Assembly: GCA_018436095.1 (NCBI GenBank)
Contig: JAHDMJ010000003.1
Location: 1-64,000, forward strand
Direction: 5' to 3'
Length of the DNA: 64,000 nt
Source: Clostridia bacterium
GTDB taxonomy: Bacteria; Bacillota; Peptococcia; DRI-13; UBA5745
The notes beneath the pieces are model-generated. The model worked only from the letters and a program-made list of their open reading frames with translations, made no database searches and was not told the DNA's origin. Positions 14,817-28,383 of this stretch are shown one piece after another. Every line of letters starts with the position of its first letter. Position 1 is the stretch's first letter. A program made the translations under genes and the position numbers.

Positions 14817-14844
14817 TTGACAGGCTTATAAATGCTGATAAAAT
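14817..14844 (+). promoter_or_regulatory. Promoter of the GntR-family gene
   Basis: TTGACA at 14817-14822 and TAAAAT at 14839-14844, 16-base spacer. It starts within 4 bases of the upstream gene's stop codon. A TGTACT-n-TA motif just downstream (14846-14853) recurs in the promoter of the glutamate mutase operon and may be the operator. Confidence 0.6.
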
Positions 14845-14879
14845 TGTACTATATTAATTTGAGAGAAGATGTATGTATT

Positions 14880-15872
14880 ATGAAACTTCTTATTGATAGT
14901 ACTGCGGAAACACCAATTTATCAGCAAATTATCGATGGCTTAAAAAGAGCCATCCAAAGCGGTATCCTGCCCCCCGGCAGCCAGTTGCCTACGGTCCGGG
15001 AGCTGGCGGAGGAAAACCTGATTGCCCGGGGAACGGTTAAGCACGCTTACGATATGCTGGAGCTGGAGGGGCTGATCAAAAAGCAGCAGGGCAAGGGTAC
15101 CTTTGTGTATCAGCAGCCGGAAGAAAAGACTTTGGGCAAAAAAGAACAGGCCACTTTAGCCATGGACCGTTTGCTTGAACAGCTGGAAGAGTTGGGCTTT
15201 TCTTTACGGGATATCCGGATTATTTTGGATTTAAAGCTCAGGGAAAGGGAAGAGTCCTACCGTCATGTCAGGATCGGTGCAGTGGATTGTTCGCCGGAGG
15301 CTTTATCCGTGATTATGGATCAGCTAGCCGGCTTTCCCGGCGCCGATGTTTTTGAATATTTACTGCAGCCGATTTTGGATTCTCCTTCCCAGTTTAATCC
15401 CGGCTGGGACATTTACATTACTACTCCTACTCATTATCAGGAGCTTAGCGAAAAAATGCCTGCCGGCAGCCGCCTGATTCAAGTTGTTTTGTCGGTATCG
15501 GCCGAGACTATCTTGGAGCTGGCCAGGATCCCGAGAGAAAAAAAGGTAGGGATATTATGCAGCAGCCGGCGCTTTGGCGACATTATTAAAAGAGCCTGCC
15601 GGCGCTACTGCCGGCTGGATCAGGAGCCGCAGGTTTATTACTTTGGCGATCCGGAGGCTGAGGCAACGGCAGCTTTCCTTAAAGATACTGAGCAATTGAT
15701 CCTGCCTCTTAATTATCTGAGGTTTTCCTCGGCCAGGGAACAAAACCTGCTGGCCCAATATACCGCCAACAATAAACCGGTTATCTTCCAATACCAGATG
15801 GAGCAAGGCTCTTTGCTTTATTTGGCCGAACAGATACAACGGGTCCGGAGCCTGATTCGGGGCTTGGAATAA
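14880..15872 (+). CDS. GntR-family transcriptional regulator, likely of the glutamate mutase operon
   Basis: 330 residues from the ATG at 14880 (an in-frame ATG at 14832 lies inside the promoter). The N-terminal 75 residues are a classical GntR winged helix (PIYQQIIDGLKRAIQSGILPPG, RELAEENLIARGTVKHAYDMLE). The C-terminal ~230 residues are an alpha/beta domain with a possible ligand fold, not one of the usual FadR, HutC or aminotransferase types. It precedes the glutamate mutase operon on the same strand, separated by a terminator and a strong promoter. Control of that operon is inferred from position and the shared motif. Confidence 0.85.
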   Translation: MKLLIDSTAETPIYQQIIDGLKRAIQSGILPPGSQLPTVRELAEENLIARGTVKHAYDMLELEGLIKKQQGKGTFVYQQPEEKTLGKKEQATLAMDRLLEQLEELGFSLRDIRIILDLKLREREESYRHVRIGAVDCSPEALSVIMDQLAGFPGADVFEYLLQPILDSPSQFNPGWDIYITTPTHYQELSEKMPAGSRLIQVVLSVSAETILELARIPREKKVGILCSSRRFGDIIKRACRRYCRLDQEPQVYYFGDPEAEATAAFLKDTEQLILPLNYLRFSSAREQNLLAQYTANNKPVIFQYQMEQGSLLYLAEQIQRVRSLIRGLE

Positions 15873-15994: not shown

Positions 15995-16023
15995 TTGACA
16001 AATGTACTGTAACTATTTATGAT
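15995..16023 (+). promoter_or_regulatory. Promoter of the glutamate mutase operon
   Basis: TTGACA at 15995-16000 and TATGAT at 16018-16023, 17-base spacer. The spacer contains TGTACTGTAACTA, sharing TGTACT-n-TA with the GntR gene promoter, so GntR repression is plausible. Confidence 0.75.
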
Positions 16024-16083: not shown

Positions 16084-16494
16084 ATGCAGGGGAAAACTCT
16101 TATCCTAGGCGTAATTGGCGCTGATGTTCATGCGGTGGGCAACAAGATTCTTTATCATGCATTTAGGCAAGCCGGATTTGAGGTGGTCAATCTGGGCGTA
16201 ATGGTATCCCAGGAGGAGTTTATTGAAGCCGCTATTGAGACGGCGGCATCGGTCATCATTGTGGCCTCCCTTTATGGCCATGGTGAGCTGGATTGCCGGG
16301 GCATGCGGGAGAAGTGCCAGGAAGCGGGGCTGGCCGATATATTGCTATATGTAGGCGGCAATATCGTCGTAGGCAAGCAGCCCTTTGAAGAAGTTGAGCA
16401 GCGTTTTAGCGAGATGGGCTTTGACCGGGTTTTTCCGCCGGGAACCCTGCCTGATGCCGTCATCAATGCGTTAGAGGAGGATCTGCAGCCGTGA
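16084..16494 (+). CDS. glmS: Glutamate mutase sigma subunit (cobalamin-binding)
   Basis: 136 residues, the usual size. The B12-binding signature DxHxxG is seen as D14, H16 and G19, and the GG near VGGN ([11 protein letters not shown]) matches the base-off, His-on binding site. With GlmE it forms glutamate mutase (EC 5.4.99.1), converting L-glutamate to (2S,3S)-3-methylaspartate using adenosylcobalamin. It is the first gene of the operon and overlaps glmL by 4 bases (GTGA). Confidence 0.95.
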
Positions 16495-17894
16495 GCCTTG
16501 TCCTGCTCATCGATTTTGGCAGCACCTATACAAAGGTAACGGCTGTAGACAGAAAGGCCAGAGCCCTGTTGGGGACGGCGGCGGCTTACACCACGGTGGC
16601 TACAGATATCAATGAAGGCTTGGAAAAGGCTCTGGCTGACTTGCAGGCAATGCTGCCGGCCACTGTAGATTTAAAGAATATCCAGAGATTTGCCTGTTCC
16701 AGCGCAGCCGGCGGCTTGCGTATGGTTACCAGCGGCCTGGTGCCTGCTTTAACGGCAGAGGCGGCCCGTTTGGCTTCTTTGGGGGCCGGCGCTAAAGTGG
16801 TTAAGGTCTTTTCCTATGAATTAACGGAAGAAGACATCGAAGAAATCGATAGCCTGCGGCCTGATATTTTTCTGCTGACCGGGGGCACCGATGGAGGCAA
16901 TAAGGCTTGCAGTCTTCACAATGCAGCTATGCTGGCCCGGTGCAAAAGCGAATTTCCCATACTCATCGCCGGCAACCGTTCCTGCGCTAAAGAATGTGAA
17001 GCCTTGCTGGCAGGCAGGGAGATATACCGCTGCGAAAATGTGATGCCCAGGATGAACCAATTAAATATCGAACCGGTACAAAACAAGATCAGGGAGATTT
17101 TTTTGCATAAGATTATTCGGGCCAAGGGCTTAAGTCAAGCCAGGGAGCTGATTTCCGGTATTTTGATGCCTACGCCGGCAGCTTTGATGGCGGCCATGGA
17201 GCTTCTGGCCAAGGGCACTGCCAGTCAAGAGGGATTGGGTGATCTGATGGCCGTAGATTTGGGAGGGGCCACTACCGACGTATATTCCATGGCTCAGGGC
17301 CTGCCCCAAAGCGAGGATACGGTAATGAAAGGCTTGCCGGAGCCTTATGCCAAAAGGACGGTTGAAGGAGATATCGGTATGCGCTACAGCGCCGGCGGTA
17401 TATTGGCGGCAGCGGGAGCGGATAAGCTGGCGGCTTTATCGGGCCTTTCTCCCGGTGAAGTGGAGGAGCTGGTGGAATATGTGACCAGCCATACCGATGT
17501 GCTGCCCCAAAGTCCGGAGTCAGATCCCAGACTGGGGCCCCTGGACTTTGCTTTGGCAGCGGCGGCAGTGGAAACGGCGGTGACCCGCCATGCCGGCAGT
17601 TTGGAGCAAATCTATACGCCCATGGGACTGTCCTATATCCAGACAGGCAAAGACTTGAGGGATATCAAACAGTTGGTGGCTACCGGCGGCGCTATTATCC
17701 ACACCGAAAACACCGCGGCCATCATCAACCGGGCTCTCTACAGCCGGGATAATCCCTTTTCCTTAAAGCCCAAAAAGGTAAATGTCTTTATCGACCGCAG
17801 ATATATATTGGCAGCCATGGGACTTTTAGCGGATAAAGATCCCGATTGCGCACTGGCCATCATGAGAGAGGAGTTGGAGTTTCATGGAGCTTAA
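16491..17894 (+). CDS. glmL: MutL-type ATPase, glutamate mutase reactivation/accessory protein
   Basis: 467 residues, starting with GTG in the GTGA overlap. The N-terminal phosphate-binding loop ([15 protein letters not shown]) and second nucleotide motif ([15 protein letters not shown]) put it in the MutL family of actin-fold ATPases. It sits between glmS and glmE as in Clostridium tetanomorphum and C. cochlearium. A role in reactivating or assembling the mutase is proposed for the family; the sequence shows only the ATPase fold. Confidence 0.95.
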
Positions 17895-19347
17895 AAACAA
17901 GCGGATTGCAGACGAGGAGTTTCAGGAAATCAGAAAAACCGTATTGCAGCAATGGCCTACCGGCAAGGATGTGAATTTGGAGGAAGGCTTTGCCTACCAT
18001 AAGGCTTTACCTGGTCATAAGATTTTTTCCGATAAGCTCAATAAAGCCAAGGCTCAGGGCATCACCTTGATTCAGCCCCGGGCAGGCGTGGCCTTAATCC
18101 ATGAGCATATTGAATTATTGACCTACTTGCAGGATAAGGGTGAGGCGGATCTGCTGCCTACCACCATCGACAGCTATACCAGGCAGAACCGTTACCAAAA
18201 GGCGGAGATGGGCATTGAAGAATCCGTGAAAGCCGGCACTTCCAAGCTCAACGGCTTTCCGGCAGTCAATCACGGTGTAGCCGCCTGCCGCCAGATCATT
18301 GAAGCCTTAGATACCCCGGTGCAGATTCGGCACGGTACTCCCGACGCCCGCCTGCTGGCGGAGATTAGTTTGGCCGGCGGTTTCACCAGCTTTGAGGGCG
18401 GCGGTATATCTTACAACATTCCTTATGCCAAGTCCGCCCAGCCGGAGCAGACGGTAAGAGACTGGCAATACATAGACCGGCTGACGGGTATTTATGAAGA
18501 AGCCGGCATTGCTATCAACCGGGAGCCCTTCGGCCCTTTAACCGGCACCTTGGTACCCCCTTGCGTTTCCCACTCGGTAGCCGTTATTGAAGCCTTGCTG
18601 GCAGCGGAGCAGGGTGTGAAGAACATCACCGTAGGCTACGGCCAGTGCGGCAATTTAATGCAGGATGTGGCAGCCATGCAGAGCCTGATGGCTTTGACGG
18701 AGGCTTATCTTAAAGAATACGGTTACGGCAATGTAGCCGTAACCACAGTGCTGCACCAATGGATGGGAGGTTTCCCCCAGGATGAGGCTAAAGCCTTTGC
18801 CGTTATTTCCTGGGGCAGCGCCGCCGCGGCTTTATCTAACGCTACAAAAGTTATTGTTAAGACGCCCCACGAGGCTTTAGGCGTACCTACCATGGAAGCT
18901 AACGCCCAGGGTTTACGCTGCACCAAACAGATGATTTCCATGCTGCGGGAACAACAGATAAGCCCCAAAATCCTGGACGAAGAAAAAGAGATCATCGAAA
19001 AAGAAACCCGCTGCATCGTCGATAAATGCTTCGAACTGGGGGGCGGCGACATCGCTAAAGGCGCAGTGGCCGCTCTGCAGGCCGGCGTTATCGACGTGCC
19101 TTTTGCTCCCAGCAAGTTTAATGCCGGCAGGCTGCTGCCTGCCCGGGATAATGAAGGCGCCGTCCGGATCATCGACGCCGGTTCGGTACCTCTGTCTAAG
19201 GAACTGATGGAGTTTCACAAAGCGAAAATCGCGGAGCGGGCAAAGGCGGAGAAGCGCCAGCCCTCTTTCCAAATGGTAATTGACGATGTTTACGCCATAA
19301 GCAAAGGCCGTTTAGTGGGCCGGCCCGCTGGTTTTGGCCAGCAATAG
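17884..19347 (+). CDS. glmE: Glutamate mutase epsilon subunit (catalytic)
   Basis: 487 residues, typical of the epsilon subunit. It overlaps glmL by 11 bases. TIM-barrel features are clear: [49 protein letters not shown] and [15 protein letters not shown] near the active site, where conserved arginines hold the glutamate carboxylates. With GlmS it carries out the carbon-skeleton rearrangement that opens the methylaspartate route of glutamate fermentation. Confidence 0.96.
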
Positions 19348-19383
19348 CAGATAAAACGCAAATTATTGAGGAGGCGCAAGATC

Positions 19384-20619
19384 ATGAAAGTTGTCAAAGC
19401 AGTGTGTGCACCGGGGCGGACAGGTTTTTATTTTGACGATCAGCGTGCTATCAAAGGCGGCGCTATAGCCGACGGTTCCTACTATAAGGGGCAGCCGGTG
19501 ACTCCCGGCTTTTCCGCTGTACGGCAGGCCGGAGAAAGCATTTCCGTATTGCTGACTCTGGAAGACGGCCAGGTGGCCTGGGGCGACTGCTGTGCCGTCC
19601 AATATTCCGGCTGCGGCGGACGGGATCCCTTGTTTTTGGCAAAGGATTTCATTCCCATGATTGAAAAGCATATTTTCCCCAAACTGGTGGGTGTGGAAAT
19701 GGAGGATTTCCGCCAATTGGCGGACATGATCGAAAAGATGGCGGTGGAAGGCAAACCCCTTCATACCGCTATCCGCTATGGCGTCTCCCAGGCTTTGCTG
19801 GATGCGGTGGCCAAGTCGAAGAAAAAGCTGATGTGCGAGATTATTGCCGATGAATATGGCACTACCGTTGCCGACAAGGAACTGCCGATTTTCACCCAGT
19901 CCGGCGACGACCGCCACAGTAATGCGGACAAAATGATTATGAAGCATGCCCAGGTGCTGCCCCATGCCCTGATCAATAATGTAGAAACCAAGCTGGGCAA
20001 AAAAGGCGAGATTCTCCTGGAATACATAGGCTGGCTGCGGGACCGGATTCTGGAGCTGCGGTTGGACGAAAGCTACGTACCTACTATGCATATCGACGTT
20101 TACGGTACTATCGGCCAGTTGCTGGGCAATACTAATTACGAAGACATGGCCGACTATTTGGCTGTTTTGGGCGAGGCGGCCAAACCCTTTGCTCTGAGAA
20201 TCGAAGGCCCTATGGACGAAGAAGAACGGGAGAAGCAAATGATTGCTTTGAGCACCCTCACTAAGCTGCTGGATGAGAGGAAGATCCCCGTGGAGCTGGT
20301 GGCCGACGAATGGTGCAATACTTTGGAGGATATCAAGTATTTTGCGGATCATAAGGCGGGCCATATGATTCAAATTAAAACTCCTGATTTAGGAGGTATC
20401 GGCAATATCGTGGAAGCCGTGCTGTATTGCAAAGAAAAAGGGGTTCTGGCCTATCAGGGCGGCAGCTGCAATGAAACGGACCGCTCGGCCCAGGTTTGCG
20501 CCCATCTGGCCATGGCCAGCCAGCCTGTGCAGATTTTAGCTAAACCCGGCATGGGCGTGGATGAGGGTTATATGATTGTTTACAATGAGATGCAAAGGAT
20601 TCTGGCGTTGCGCAAATAA
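19384..20619 (+). CDS. mal: Methylaspartate ammonia-lyase
   Basis: 411 residues, the family length. The ATG at 19384 follows GAGGAGG; the alternative GTG at 19366 adds residues that do not fit. The enolase-superfamily pattern is visible, with the metal-binding acids (HIDVYG, EGPMD, VADEW) and the catalytic lysine in QIKTPDLGG. The enzyme (EC 4.3.1.2) eliminates ammonia from 3-methylaspartate to give mesaconate, the next step after glutamate mutase. Confidence 0.96.
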   Translation: MKVVKAVCAPGRTGFYFDDQRAIKGGAIADGSYYKGQPVTPGFSAVRQAGESISVLLTLEDGQVAWGDCCAVQYSGCGGRDPLFLAKDFIPMIEKHIFPKLVGVEMEDFRQLADMIEKMAVEGKPLHTAIRYGVSQALLDAVAKSKKKLMCEIIADEYGTTVADKELPIFTQSGDDRHSNADKMIMKHAQVLPHALINNVETKLGKKGEILLEYIGWLRDRILELRLDESYVPTMHIDVYGTIGQLLGNTNYEDMADYLAVLGEAAKPFALRIEGPMDEEEREKQMIALSTLTKLLDERKIPVELVADEWCNTLEDIKYFADHKAGHMIQIKTPDLGGIGNIVEAVLYCKEKGVLAYQGGSCNETDRSAQVCAHLAMASQPVQILAKPGMGVDEGYMIVYNEMQRILALRK

Positions 20620-20639: not shown

Positions 20640-22001
20640 ATGAGAGAGGAATTTCGTATTTTATCAACTACCGCTATTTTAGGCTACGGCTTTCCGCTGC
20701 AATCTTTCGAGGAAGGGATGAAACGCCGTCCCCATTTAATTGCGGTAGATGCCGGGTCCACTGACCCGGGACCCTATTATTTGGGGGCCGGAGTTTCCTT
20801 CACCGACCGGGATGCGGTGAAACGGGACCTGGAAATTATGCTGAAAGCAGGGATGCCCAATAAGATCCCGGTAGTCATCGGCACCGCCGGCGGCTCCGGC
20901 GGCAGGCCCCATCTTGACTGGTGCCGGCAAATTATCGAAGAGATTGCGGCCGAAAATCAGCTCCATTTCAAAATGGCCTTGATCGACGCCGAGTTTGACA
21001 AGGAAGAGATCAAAAAAGCTCTGGCTGAAGGCCTTATTGCACCCCTTGAGCCGGCGCCGCCTTTGACTCCGGAAATGGTGGAGGCTTCCAGCCATATTGT
21101 AGGGCAGATGGGGATAGAGCCCTTTATTAAAGCTTTAGAGGAGGAGCCGGCGGTAATTCTGGCCGGCCGGGCCTATGATCCCACGGTTTTTGCTGCCTTA
21201 GCCATAAAAAAAGGCTATGACCGGGGCCTATCCATTCATTTGGGTAAGATCCTGGAATGCGCTTCTATTTGCGCTACCCCCGGCAGCGGCTCTGACTGCA
21301 TGTTCGGCTATATTGGCGAAGATTATTTCCGGGTGGAGCCTCTTAATCCCATTCGCAAATGCACCACCCTCTCGGTGGCCGCCCATACCTTGTATGAGAA
21401 AACCAACCCTTACATTTTGCCCGGTCCCGGAGGCCATCTGGATCTGACGGATTGTATCTTTGAGCAAGAGACGGACAATATCGTCCGGGTTAAAGGCAGC
21501 CGTTTTGTGCCGGCGCAGCAGTACACCATCAAGCTGGAGGGGGCTAAGCGTATTGGCTACCGAACGGTGTCTATTGCCGGCGCCCGGGATCCCGTGATGA
21601 TCGCCGCTATCGATGAGATTATTGCAGGCGTGAAGGAGCGGGTAGCCGACAATTTCCGGGAAAAGCAATGGGAATACCATCTGCGTTTTAATATTTACGG
21701 CCGGGACGGGGTAATGGGTTCCCTGGAACCGACGCCTGCCACCACAGGAGTTCATGAGCTGGGCATCATTATCGAAGCCACAGCCCCTACACAGAAGCAG
21801 GCCGACACCATCTGCTCCTTTGCCCGTTCTACTATGCTGCACTACGGCTACAGAGGCCGCCGGGCCACTGCCGGCAATCTGGCCTTCCCTTATTCGCCCA
21901 GTGACTTCCATGCCGGTGAAGTCTATGTGTTCAGTGTTTATCACTTGCTGAAAACGGAAGACCCGGCAGGTTGCTTCCCCATTAGCTTTGTGAATCTGTA
22001 G
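20640..22001 (+). CDS. AtuA-family (DUF1446) protein
   Basis: 453 residues, full length for the acyclic terpene utilisation AtuA/DUF1446 family (VDAGSTDPGPYYLGAG near residue 38, GTAGGSGGRPHLDW near residue 80, GRAYDPTVFAALAI in the middle). It is 20 bases behind mal and 15 bases before a DUF4387 gene. The AtuA-DUF4387 pair recurs beside catabolic operons. Because the next known step converts mesaconate to citramalate, a hydratase-like or CoA-handling role is conceivable, but no activity can be deduced from the sequence. Confidence 0.9.
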   Translation: MREEFRILSTTAILGYGFPLQSFEEGMKRRPHLIAVDAGSTDPGPYYLGAGVSFTDRDAVKRDLEIMLKAGMPNKIPVVIGTAGGSGGRPHLDWCRQIIEEIAAENQLHFKMALIDAEFDKEEIKKALAEGLIAPLEPAPPLTPEMVEASSHIVGQMGIEPFIKALEEEPAVILAGRAYDPTVFAALAIKKGYDRGLSIHLGKILECASICATPGSGSDCMFGYIGEDYFRVEPLNPIRKCTTLSVAAHTLYEKTNPYILPGPGGHLDLTDCIFEQETDNIVRVKGSRFVPAQQYTIKLEGAKRIGYRTVSIAGARDPVMIAAIDEIIAGVKERVADNFREKQWEYHLRFNIYGRDGVMGSLEPTPATTGVHELGIIIEATAPTQKQADTICSFARSTMLHYGYRGRRATAGNLAFPYSPSDFHAGEVYVFSVYHLLKTEDPAGCFPISFVNL

Positions 22002-22016
22002 GAAGGAGAGGGCAAA

Positions 22017-22334
22017 ATGAAAATCAGCCTTTTAGATATCACCGATGTGATCCGCAGCAAAAATTCCGGCCCTTATGAGCTGACCTTCGATATTATGTTT
22101 AAGGATCAGGAGTCTTTTCAAAAGGTTTGCGACGCCAAAATCATCAATGAAGAGTTGATTTGCCGCTTGTATCGGATTCCGGCTTCGGATATTATAAATA
22201 TTGTGGAGTTTAAGCCGGCTAAAGCCATCAAGGTTACAATTAAGCGGCCTATCTGCTCCGGCGACCTGGGAGAAACCGACGTTTACGGCGCCCAGCAGCA
22301 CGCCCCTTTATTGGATATAAGCTTTGAGTTGTAG
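22017..22334 (+). CDS. DUF4387 protein, partner of AtuA-like protein
   Basis: 105 residues. The start KISLLDITDVIRSKNSGPYELTFD... and the DVYGAQQHAPLLDISFE end match DUF4387, which usually follows, or is fused to, AtuA-type proteins. This supports a two-subunit complex with the preceding gene product. Function unknown. Confidence 0.88.
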   Translation: MKISLLDITDVIRSKNSGPYELTFDIMFKDQESFQKVCDAKIINEELICRLYRIPASDIINIVEFKPAKAIKVTIKRPICSGDLGETDVYGAQQHAPLLDISFEL

Positions 22335-22350: not shown

Positions 22351-23289
22351 ATGGCATACTCTGATCCAGTAGAAAAAAGTCATCTTTATTCTGTGTTTTT
22401 TGCCCCCAGAGGCTATACCCGTATGGCTAGCCTGGGCATGCAGATTGCGGCCAGCTATCTCAGCCCTTTTGACAAGCTGATCGGTGTGGTAGGGGAGGGA
22501 GGCTCCGGCAAAAGCATGCTGATCAAAGGCATGTTCCCCGGCCTGGAACTGACAAACGACGATGAGGGGGTCAATGTCCGGCCCTTGCCCATCCTCAGCG
22601 TGGGGGAAAGCCCCAGTGGTTTTTACAGCACCCATACGTATCATCTGGATATCCGTTTTGAGGCAGCTTTCACCCAGATGCATGTGCTGGCTGCCGCTAT
22701 TTTGGAAGCAGTAGAAATGGGTAAGCGGGTAATCGTCGAGCATTTTGAGCTGGTTTATCCTTTTTTGGAGAGAAACGCTAATTTGCTGATTGGCATCGGT
22801 GAAGAGGTGATCATTACCCGTCCCACCCTATTCGGCCCGGAGCCTCAGGATATTGCCGAAATCGTTTTCCGCTCTATCAAGTTCAGGCGGATGACTCATA
22901 CTGCCGAAGATTTATGCGAATATTATTTAAAGCATACGGCTAAAAGCAAAGAACCCTACATTCATTCCGACGTCCGCCACGGTTTTGTACTCAGCTTCCA
23001 AAACAAGCCGGAGGTGGATTTGGATGATATGGAAAAAGCCATCAATGATATAATTGCTGAGGACATCACTATTTCTTATAAGGATGACCAGCATATCCTG
23101 ATTGGCGACCGGGAGCATGCCTGTACCGGCCCCCGCATCCATGTGAGCAGCACTGCGGAAATCCGCAAGTTTGCTTTAAATAAGGAGTTTATGATCGAAC
23201 CAGGCACCGGCCGCTATTTGATGGTGGGTATAGTGGGCAATCACGCCCCTATGAAAATCAAAGATTTGAACAAAATCATGCTGGCCTGA
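22351..23289 (+). CDS. P-loop NTPase fused to an AlaRS-like second additional domain
   Basis: 312 residues. A Walker A motif GEGGSGKS is at residues 48-55. The C-terminal third (about 205-300) resembles the tRNA-synthetase SAD/editing domain: CTGPRIHVSS around residue 258 corresponds to the CxGTHV-type metal motif of AlaRS. The protein has no synthetase body. It is the last gene of the glutamate mutase operon, 16 bases after DUF4387. It might be a metal-dependent esterase or a regulator sensing an amino-acid intermediate; this is inference. Confidence 0.75.
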   Translation: MAYSDPVEKSHLYSVFFAPRGYTRMASLGMQIAASYLSPFDKLIGVVGEGGSGKSMLIKGMFPGLELTNDDEGVNVRPLPILSVGESPSGFYSTHTYHLDIRFEAAFTQMHVLAAAILEAVEMGKRVIVEHFELVYPFLERNANLLIGIGEEVIITRPTLFGPEPQDIAEIVFRSIKFRRMTHTAEDLCEYYLKHTAKSKEPYIHSDVRHGFVLSFQNKPEVDLDDMEKAINDIIAEDITISYKDDQHILIGDREHACTGPRIHVSSTAEIRKFALNKEFMIEPGTGRYLMVGIVGNHAPMKIKDLNKIMLA

Positions 23290-23365: not shown

Positions 23366-23451
23366 GCCCGAGTGGCGGAACAGGCAGACGCACAGGACTT
23401 AAAATCCTGCGAGGGTTAAACCTCGTACCGGTTCGACCCCGGTCTCGGGCA
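23366..23451 (+). tRNA. tRNA-Leu (anticodon TAA)
   Basis: 86 bases with all elements of a class II tRNA: acceptor GCCCGAG/CTCGGGC, D-arm, anticodon loop CTTAAAA (TAA), long variable arm (GAGGGTTAAACCTC), T-arm with GGTTCGACCCC, and discriminator A. CCA is not encoded. Its 3' half is copied at 27289-27344 and 35463-35516, marking it as the attachment site of the downstream units. Confidence 0.97.
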
Positions 23452-27495: not shown

Positions 27496-27795
27496 TCACT
27501 TTGCAGCCTTGATAGTAAAGGGCGAAGAGGCAATGGCTGCCTTTTTTTCGTGCTTTAAAACATGCCCATACGTGTCCCACGTCACAGCAGCAGTTTGATG
27601 CCCCGCCAACTCCTGCACTACGCTGACTCGTGTCTGGCGCATCATCTGGTAGGTGATAAAAGCGTGCCTAACGTCATGTAGCCGCATTTTAATACCGAAT
27701 TCCCGGGAATACTCTGCCATCTTAGCAGAAAAGTAATCTGGGTTTGTGGGCTTGCCATCAGGATGACAGAATAAAAAATCCATGCCAAAATAAGC
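27496..27795 (-). pseudogene. Tyrosine recombinase (phage integrase), 3' remnant
   Basis: About 100 C-terminal residues on the minus strand: CHPDGKPTNPDYFSAKM, then the box II pattern LHDVRHAF, AGHQTA, and the catalytic tyrosine region WDTYGHV. The N-terminal two thirds are missing. At about 27790 the sequence switches to a tail gene on the other strand. Its 3' end lies about 150 bases from the attachment repeat, the expected place for the integrase of a tRNA-Leu element. Confidence 0.85.
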
Positions 27796-28383
27796 AGCAC
27801 CGGCCGATATACGCTGACGCTGGATAATCAAGCCTACACGCTTTATATCGATGCATCGGTGACATCTGCACAGTGGTATAACGAGATACATATTATTGTC
27901 GATCGAATGAAGCCTGCAAACATCGTCTACATCAACCGCCCGCTGATCGAAATGGGCATAGCTGTGTCCGAGGAGATCAGGCACAGCGGAATAAATTATC
28001 AATATCAGCTGGGGACGAGATGGGTTTTAGGCAAGAACCCGTTTGCCCAGTTTGAGAACCTGGGAGTGATTAAAATGGCAGAGACAAAAAGCATAAAGCC
28101 ACTATTTTTAAACGATCTGGCCAATTTCACAGCGGATGATGTTGCCACTGTATTAATTAACGATAGCCTGGTGGTTACCGATTTCGATCTAAAGGCTGCT
28201 GCTGACAGCGTAGCCAACATCGAATATTCGCTGCCGATAGGTGCTGCTGATGTCATTACGGACATTAAGCTGCGAAAGGCTGATGCGTCGGTGCTTACCG
28301 AGTCTGTGGTATACGTTCCGCTGACGACCGGTGCCGTAATCAAACACAAAATACCAATCAAGGAGGTAGTGGTAAATGGTTAA
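27790..28383 (+). CDS. Tail protein preceding fibre 2, 5'-truncated
   Basis: The frame is open from about 27790 (a GTG at 27859 is the first usable start) and encodes about 197 residues. Early residues (TLTLDNQAYTLYIDASVTSA) and WYNEIHIIVDRMKPANIVYI look like the internal part of a longer protein. The second half (KPLFLNDLANFTADDVATVL..., TTGAVIKHKIPIKEV) resembles proteins found between YmfQ-type and fibre genes. It was cut when joined to the integrase stub. It overlaps the start of fibre 2. Confidence 0.6.
   Translation: MSSTGRYTLTLDNQAYTLYIDASVTSAQWYNEIHIIVDRMKPANIVYINRPLIEMGIAVSEEIRHSGINYQYQLGTRWVLGKNPFAQFENLGVIKMAETKSIKPLFLNDLANFTADDVATVLINDSLVVTDFDLKAAADSVANIEYSLPIGAADVITDIKLRKADASVLTESVVYVPLTTGAVIKHKIPIKEVVVNG

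Follow-up and report, generated by a model that had tools for sequence, protein, structure and literature searches.

The window, i.e., the stretch of 64,000 nucleotides that was analyzed, contains a methylaspartate operon of the order gntR-glmS-glmL-glmE-mal-atuA-DUF4387, with a gene for a 312-residue protein as its final member. This gene starts with ATG and is preceded by an AAGGAG ribosome-binding site. From glmS onward, the genes are tightly packed, with roughly −10 to +20 bp between neighbors. A strong promoter-like site (11/12) lies at 15995–16023 upstream of glmS, the frequency of such matches across the region being not above that in shuffled sequences. The genes are as follows:

14832–15872, forward strand: GntR-family regulator, upstream of the operon
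16084–16494, forward strand: glmS, methylaspartate (glutamate) mutase subunit S (NCBIfam)
16491–17894, forward strand: glmL, mutase accessory protein (NCBIfam)
17884–19347, forward strand: glmE, mutase subunit E (NCBIfam)
19366–20619, forward strand: mal, methylaspartate ammonia-lyase (NCBIfam)
20640–22001, forward strand: AtuA-family (formerly DUF1446) protein
22017–22334, forward strand: DUF4387 protein
22351–23289, forward strand: TsaE-like P-loop + SAD protein of 312 residues, the subject of this study

Since the gene follows DUF4387 in the run glmS-glmL-glmE-mal-atuA-DUF4387, its position as last gene of the methylaspartate operon, given by the initial annotation, was confirmed. The AtuA-family and DUF4387 pair (20640–22334) was present in 36 of 71 neighborhoods, with or without fumAB nearby. 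A replacement of class I fumarase by this pair was considered and dropped, as both are present in many clusters. PMC4682846 lists DUF1446 as of unknown function.

Just 3' of the operon lies a tRNA-Leu gene (23366–23451; anticodon TAA, read from the sequence). In the region from this tRNA gene to 32300, the genes after it looked phage-like by eye (tail-fibre-like, small membrane/holin-like and M15-type peptidase-like), with an integrase-like fragment among them at 27496–28002. Judged by eye, they are probably a prophage remnant at the tRNA.

Domain architecture and conserved motifs

With the window protein alone, searches of Pfam, NCBIfam and PDB sequences gave weak P-loop matches at most; no Pfam or NCBIfam match had a meaningful score, and a search of the source genome with the Pfam tRNA_SAD profile did not find the protein. 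Therefore, diverse relatives were needed. A scan of species genomes yielded 79 relatives (46–97% identity), and 147 were aligned when those from genome neighborhoods were added. In the tRNA_SAD profile check proposed with the initial annotation, the window protein gave no match, and the relative L089 (6177–7079) scored 25.7 bits (cut-off 24). This relative also matched Pfam TsaE (E-value 7e-4), as did L091 (4.7e-4). TsaE matches in divergent relatives (E-values 5e-4 to 0.02) remained below the cut-off, with a best score of 20.5 bits vs. a gathering threshold of 26.6. No family spanning the whole length was found in Pfam, NCBIfam or PDB.

The AlphaFold model of the protein (pLDDT 85.6, pTM 0.83) splits into two known folds. 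The initial annotation had described a P-loop NTPase joined to an AlaRS-type SAD fold without a synthetase domain. Fold comparison of the model, profile–profile alignment and the Pfam matches of relatives gave the same architecture, and a synthetase (aminoacylation) domain is absent. The TsaE/YjeE type of the P-loop domain is a point that the initial annotation did not contain. The domains and motifs are the following:

22381–22839, forward strand: N-terminal TsaE/YjeE-type P-loop fold, residues ~11–163 (fold comparison, hhalign, Pfam in relatives)
22492–22515, forward strand: Walker A motif GEGGSGKS, residues 48–55
22642–22650, forward strand: H98-x-D100, counterpart of the TsaE HxD motif
22738–22743, forward strand: E130-H131
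22864–23250, forward strand: SAD aminoacyl-tRNA editing domain, residues ~172–300 (fold comparison, hhalign)
22897–22911, forward strand: H183-T-A-E-D187, counterpart of AlaRS HTATH and ThrRS HSAAH, with Asp for the second His
23122–23145, forward strand: C258-TGPRI-H264-V, counterpart of ThrRS CAGPHV plus two extra residues

Residues 11–163 matched YjeE/TsaE structures with VIA Z of 9.6–10.4 (5np9, 1htw, 6n9a (chain E) and 6nak), and hhalign aligned residues 25–101 with TsaE at 86.6%; in four controls, for which unrelated profiles were used, the value was 0.1–2%. The Walker A motif reported near residue 50 is located at residues 48–55 and reads GxxxxGKS in all 147 aligned relatives, G48, G53, K54 and S55 each being conserved in 147/147. 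H98 and D100, which hhalign aligned with the TsaE HxD motif, are equally invariant (147/147), and E130 and H131 are found in 146 and 145 relatives, respectively. Placed by eye, E130 falls on the Mg/ATP-coordinating E108 of YjeE, H131 on W109 and R102 on Y82. Mutants have shown that Y82 and W109 control the ATPase activity of YjeE (PMC4330362). According to this by-eye alignment, these regulatory residues, which serve ATPase control by TsaB-TsaD, are not kept.

The protein therefore resembles TsaE (YjeE/YdiB; the t6A-synthesis ATPase, PF02367) in its fold over residues 11–163, its Walker A and HxD motifs and the glutamate of E108, but differs in the Y82/W109 positions and in its extra SAD domain. 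The true TsaE of the genome is encoded by a separate gene (G000:C17:202274-202657; 132.8 bits); the P-loop-SAD protein is a TsaE relative, not TsaE. It shares with the MeaB-type GTPases of B12 mutases that it is a P-loop NTPase encoded next to a B12 mutase, but this identity was rejected because the fold match is TsaE and the Pfam MeaB match of one relative was insignificant (E-value 0.19).

The SAD fold, on which the initial proposal depended, was present in the predicted structure: residues ~172–300 matched the editing domains of AlaX-M, AlaRS and ThrRS with VIA Z of 11–13 (9iuw, 2e1b, 2zzg and 1nyq). By hhalign, the C-terminal part reached 96% with ThrRS N2 and 84–89% with AlaRS, ThrRS N2 and AlaX being the nearest editing domains. 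In the profile alignments, the ThrRS motif DLCAGPHVPSTGKIKAFKL pairs with ACTGPRIHVSSTAEIRKFAL, and AlaRS HTATHLL pairs with HTAEDLC. The CxGxxxHV motif noticed near residue 258 is matched exactly by C258-T-G-P-R-I-H264-V265. H183, E186, C258, P261 and H264 are each conserved in 146 of the 147 relatives, position 187 holds Asp in 143 relatives and Glu in three others, and position 248 is His in 133. Judging from the conservation in these relatives, neither the Walker A nor the CxGxxxHV motif is a chance occurrence.

The metal ligands expected of an editing site are partly present. Three of the four positions of the HxxxH and CxxxH set are kept (H183, C258 and H264). In HxxxH, Asp187 takes the place of the second His, giving H183-x3-D187, and CxxxH is stretched to Cx5H (C258-x5-H264). 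Because of these two changes, editing activity is not assured. Thus, the domain shares with the editing domains of AlaX, AlaRS and ThrRS (PF07973, tRNA_SAD) the fold, the Cys and His of CxGPH and the first His of HxxxH, whereas Asp in place of the second His, two extra residues separating GP from HV, and the N-terminal P-loop domain set it apart.

Co-occurrence with glmE and gene neighborhoods

Among 398 genomes of the phylum, the gene was found in 74 and a clear glmE homologue in 87, with both present in 73 (Fisher p 3e-64, a statistic that ignores shared ancestry). The survey of operon conservation proposed earlier thus showed that the gene recurs with glm clusters, and its co-occurrence with glmE is near-exclusive (73/74). 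The sole gene-positive genome lacking glmE, G067, carries a stop-containing pseudogene next to what is left of glmE, with murI and rph on either side; the two have decayed jointly at this locus (L213:2022-4595). The pair lies within 20 kb in 68 of the 73 genomes, with glmE upstream and on the same strand in 68/68. In further genomes reached through the loci, glmE was present in 16 of 17, even where the contig of the gene was without it.

Glutamate-fermentation genes (counted as glm genes, mal, class I fumarase (mesaconase) and citramalate-lyase genes) occurred in the flanking sequence covered at 61 of the 79 loci, which come from Bacillota and Treponema. Cluster membership with glmS, glmE and mal holds across phyla, including clusters of Treponema and Prevotella. 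In Peptoclostridium acidaminophilum, the gene, whose product is WP_025436946.1, lies between citC and citX, and in Prevotella nigrescens (Bacteroidota), it is X in the order glmS-glmL-glmE-mal-atuA-DUF4387-X-fumAB; in both, it is annotated as 'hypothetical protein'. Kronen and Berg (PMC4682846) described glutamate-fermentation clusters, among them a C. kluyveri cluster with one mutase subunit alone. In the cluster descriptions consulted, the P-loop-SAD gene is not among the genes named.

Several loci deserve separate mention. Blautia genome G047 has two copies, L097 in the glm operon and L074 elsewhere, the latter being a diverged paralogue (46% identity). The use of Blautia copies far from glm as proof of unlinked co-occurrence is weakened, since G047 also has the operon copy. 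A 731-aa glmE frame in L206 was ruled out as a gene fusion, being a read-through of another upstream frame. A 2-hydroxyglutaryl-CoA dehydratase-like component (a double-cubane reductase relative) and an activator ATPase were observed in glutamate mutase clusters (L087:11408-13147, L091:8910-10652 and others).

RNase PH trims the 3' ends of tRNAs. Its gene rph (TIGR01966, 392 bits) directly follows the P-loop-SAD gene in 51 of 71 neighborhoods, usually succeeded by rdgB and then yfcE (e.g., L091:11377-14081), also in cases with more than 10 kb between glmE and the gene. Since RNase PH acts on tRNA and its gene adjoins the P-loop-SAD gene, a role on the tRNA side gains support. The adjacency may also be gene-order inertia, murI-...-rph-rdgB being an old cluster. 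A gene with a metallo-beta-lactamase fold and sub-threshold similarity to RNase Z is often located upstream (L087, L091, L156-L159).

Orphan glmE lineages

In ten genomes (G080, G122, G159, G284, G305, G326, G110, G147, G092 and G131), the gene occurs alongside a glmE homologue with no GlmS over the cut-off, and methylaspartate is therefore not expected there. A MutL match over the cut-off is absent in the f30 family, which accounts for six of the ten, and in G092, and a true MAL is absent in nine of the ten, the one exception being G131. Their glmE homologues, without a recognizable glmS in the genome, were located in L082, L197, L203-L205, L099, L083, L085, L084 and G092. The divergent ones remain intact open reading frames; in f30 and G131, the P-loop-SAD gene follows glmE immediately. 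In a quick tree, judged by its topology, the P-loop-SAD proteins of the GlmS-less genomes fell in at least three places.

Seven residues, R66, R100, R149, E171, Y177, Y181 and K326, which we take to be the active site of GlmE, are all intact in the window GlmE and show little or no variation among 53 canonical copies. Most of them are lost in the eight more divergent orphan copies examined, while the GlmE of L084 (G131) has kept most. The full-length P-loop-SAD proteins of the GlmS-less genomes retain every catalytic-type residue. Within f30, they share 67–86% identity vs. 43–68% for the adjoining GlmE. In the complete genome G147, the P-loop half alone (165 aa; L085:9493-9990) is found beside a degenerate GlmE, the SAD domain being gone. 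As the gene is kept without glmS and beside degenerate GlmE, it appears to be partnered with GlmE itself and not just with methylaspartate chemistry.

The gene does not accompany every orphan glmE, as might be supposed. Fourteen glmE genomes are without it, ten with GlmS and four without GlmS over the cut-off (G097, G136, G169 and G137).

Candidate functions

Based on sequence, the structural model and gene co-occurrence, we tentatively favor an ATP-gated editing-type hydrolase that would act on an aminoacyl ester, probably aminoacyl-tRNA, and would be tied to GlmE as a dedicated companion. The SAD domain would hydrolyze such an ester when it has been formed in error. In mutase-bearing organisms, the best candidate substrate would be tRNA carrying (2S,3S)-3-methylaspartate, the product of the mutase, which resembles aspartate. 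The TsaE-like domain, by binding and hydrolyzing ATP, may control when the substrate is released or when GlmE is contacted. Against editing stand the ten GlmS-less genomes, the SAD-less G147 and the 14 glmE genomes without the gene; moreover, SAD folds without editing activity exist, e.g., a mitoribosomal protein matched in the fold comparison. Clearance of misacylated tRNA, suggested in the initial annotation, is plausible, but clean-up of methylaspartyl-tRNA cannot be the sole role, since the intact gene is kept without a recognizable glmS and mostly without glmL or mal.

Nearly as likely, the protein would regulate or chaperone GlmE as its dedicated, ATP-driven helper; its TsaE-like domain would bind GlmE, by analogy with the tie of TsaE to TsaD-TsaB, while the SAD pocket would sense glutamate or methylaspartate with no tRNA involved. 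In favor of this reading, the gene is linked more strongly to glmE than to the pathway (73/74), and it persists in at least three places of the tree without GlmS and mostly without MAL or MutL, next to orphan GlmE copies that mostly lack R66, R100, R149, E171, Y177 and Y181. The joint decay of both genes in G067 and the P-loop part alone beside degenerate GlmE in G147 are also in line with it. However, the near-invariant catalytic-type SAD residues exceed the needs of a binding scaffold, the RNase PH adjacency is left unexplained, and both the four glmE genomes without GlmS and the ten with glmES do without the gene.

Reactivation of the B12 enzyme, also suggested in the initial annotation, is disfavored as the main role since the gene is kept in genomes without a recognizable GlmS. 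GlmL already fills this role according to its annotation and PMC4682846. GlmL/MutL likewise is a nucleotide-dependent accessory protein from the same operon, but belongs to an unrelated family (PF13941) and is present alongside. More speculatively, GlmE and the P-loop-SAD protein might form a two-part module separable from glutamate mutase, possibly for tRNA quality control or processing with RNase PH, GlmE being kept as a catalytically dead partner upon loss of the B12 subunit, which would give the large subunit of glutamate mutase a further function; we regard this as unlikely.

It is improbable that, instead of aminoacyl-tRNA, the SAD domain hydrolyzes a small molecule from the fermentation pathway, be it an ester, a thioester or an adenylate (e.g., in citramalate-lyase activation). 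The gene does adjoin citCDEF/citX or class I fumarase genes in many clusters, but the orphan genomes retain it without the pathway and, to our knowledge, aminoacyl-tRNA is the substrate of known SAD editing domains. A hitchhiker functionally unrelated to glutamate mutase, retained through gene order and whole-cluster transfer, would fit the recurrence of the window's entire operon in the same order in termite-gut Treponema, a sign of transfer as a unit, but is very improbable because co-occurrence persists through many gene orders, with the pair on separate contigs or more than 10 kb apart in several genomes.

Each of the two domains is known by itself. The libraries and literature searched did not show them fused, nor did they contain the modified editing motif or the tie to glmE, and searches on methylaspartate with AspRS, TsaE with AlaX, and DUF4387 returned nothing relevant. 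Glutamate fermentation via methylaspartate has been studied since the 1960s. The P-loop-SAD protein accompanies the first enzyme of this pathway in most clusters examined, yet is annotated as 'hypothetical'. If it is an editing hydrolase, it would serve as a dedicated editor for a non-protein amino acid that the cell mass-produces by its own catabolism, and it would carry an ATP switch that known AlaX-type editors are without. If it is instead a partner of GlmE, a classic B12 enzyme subunit would have a second, non-catalytic role.
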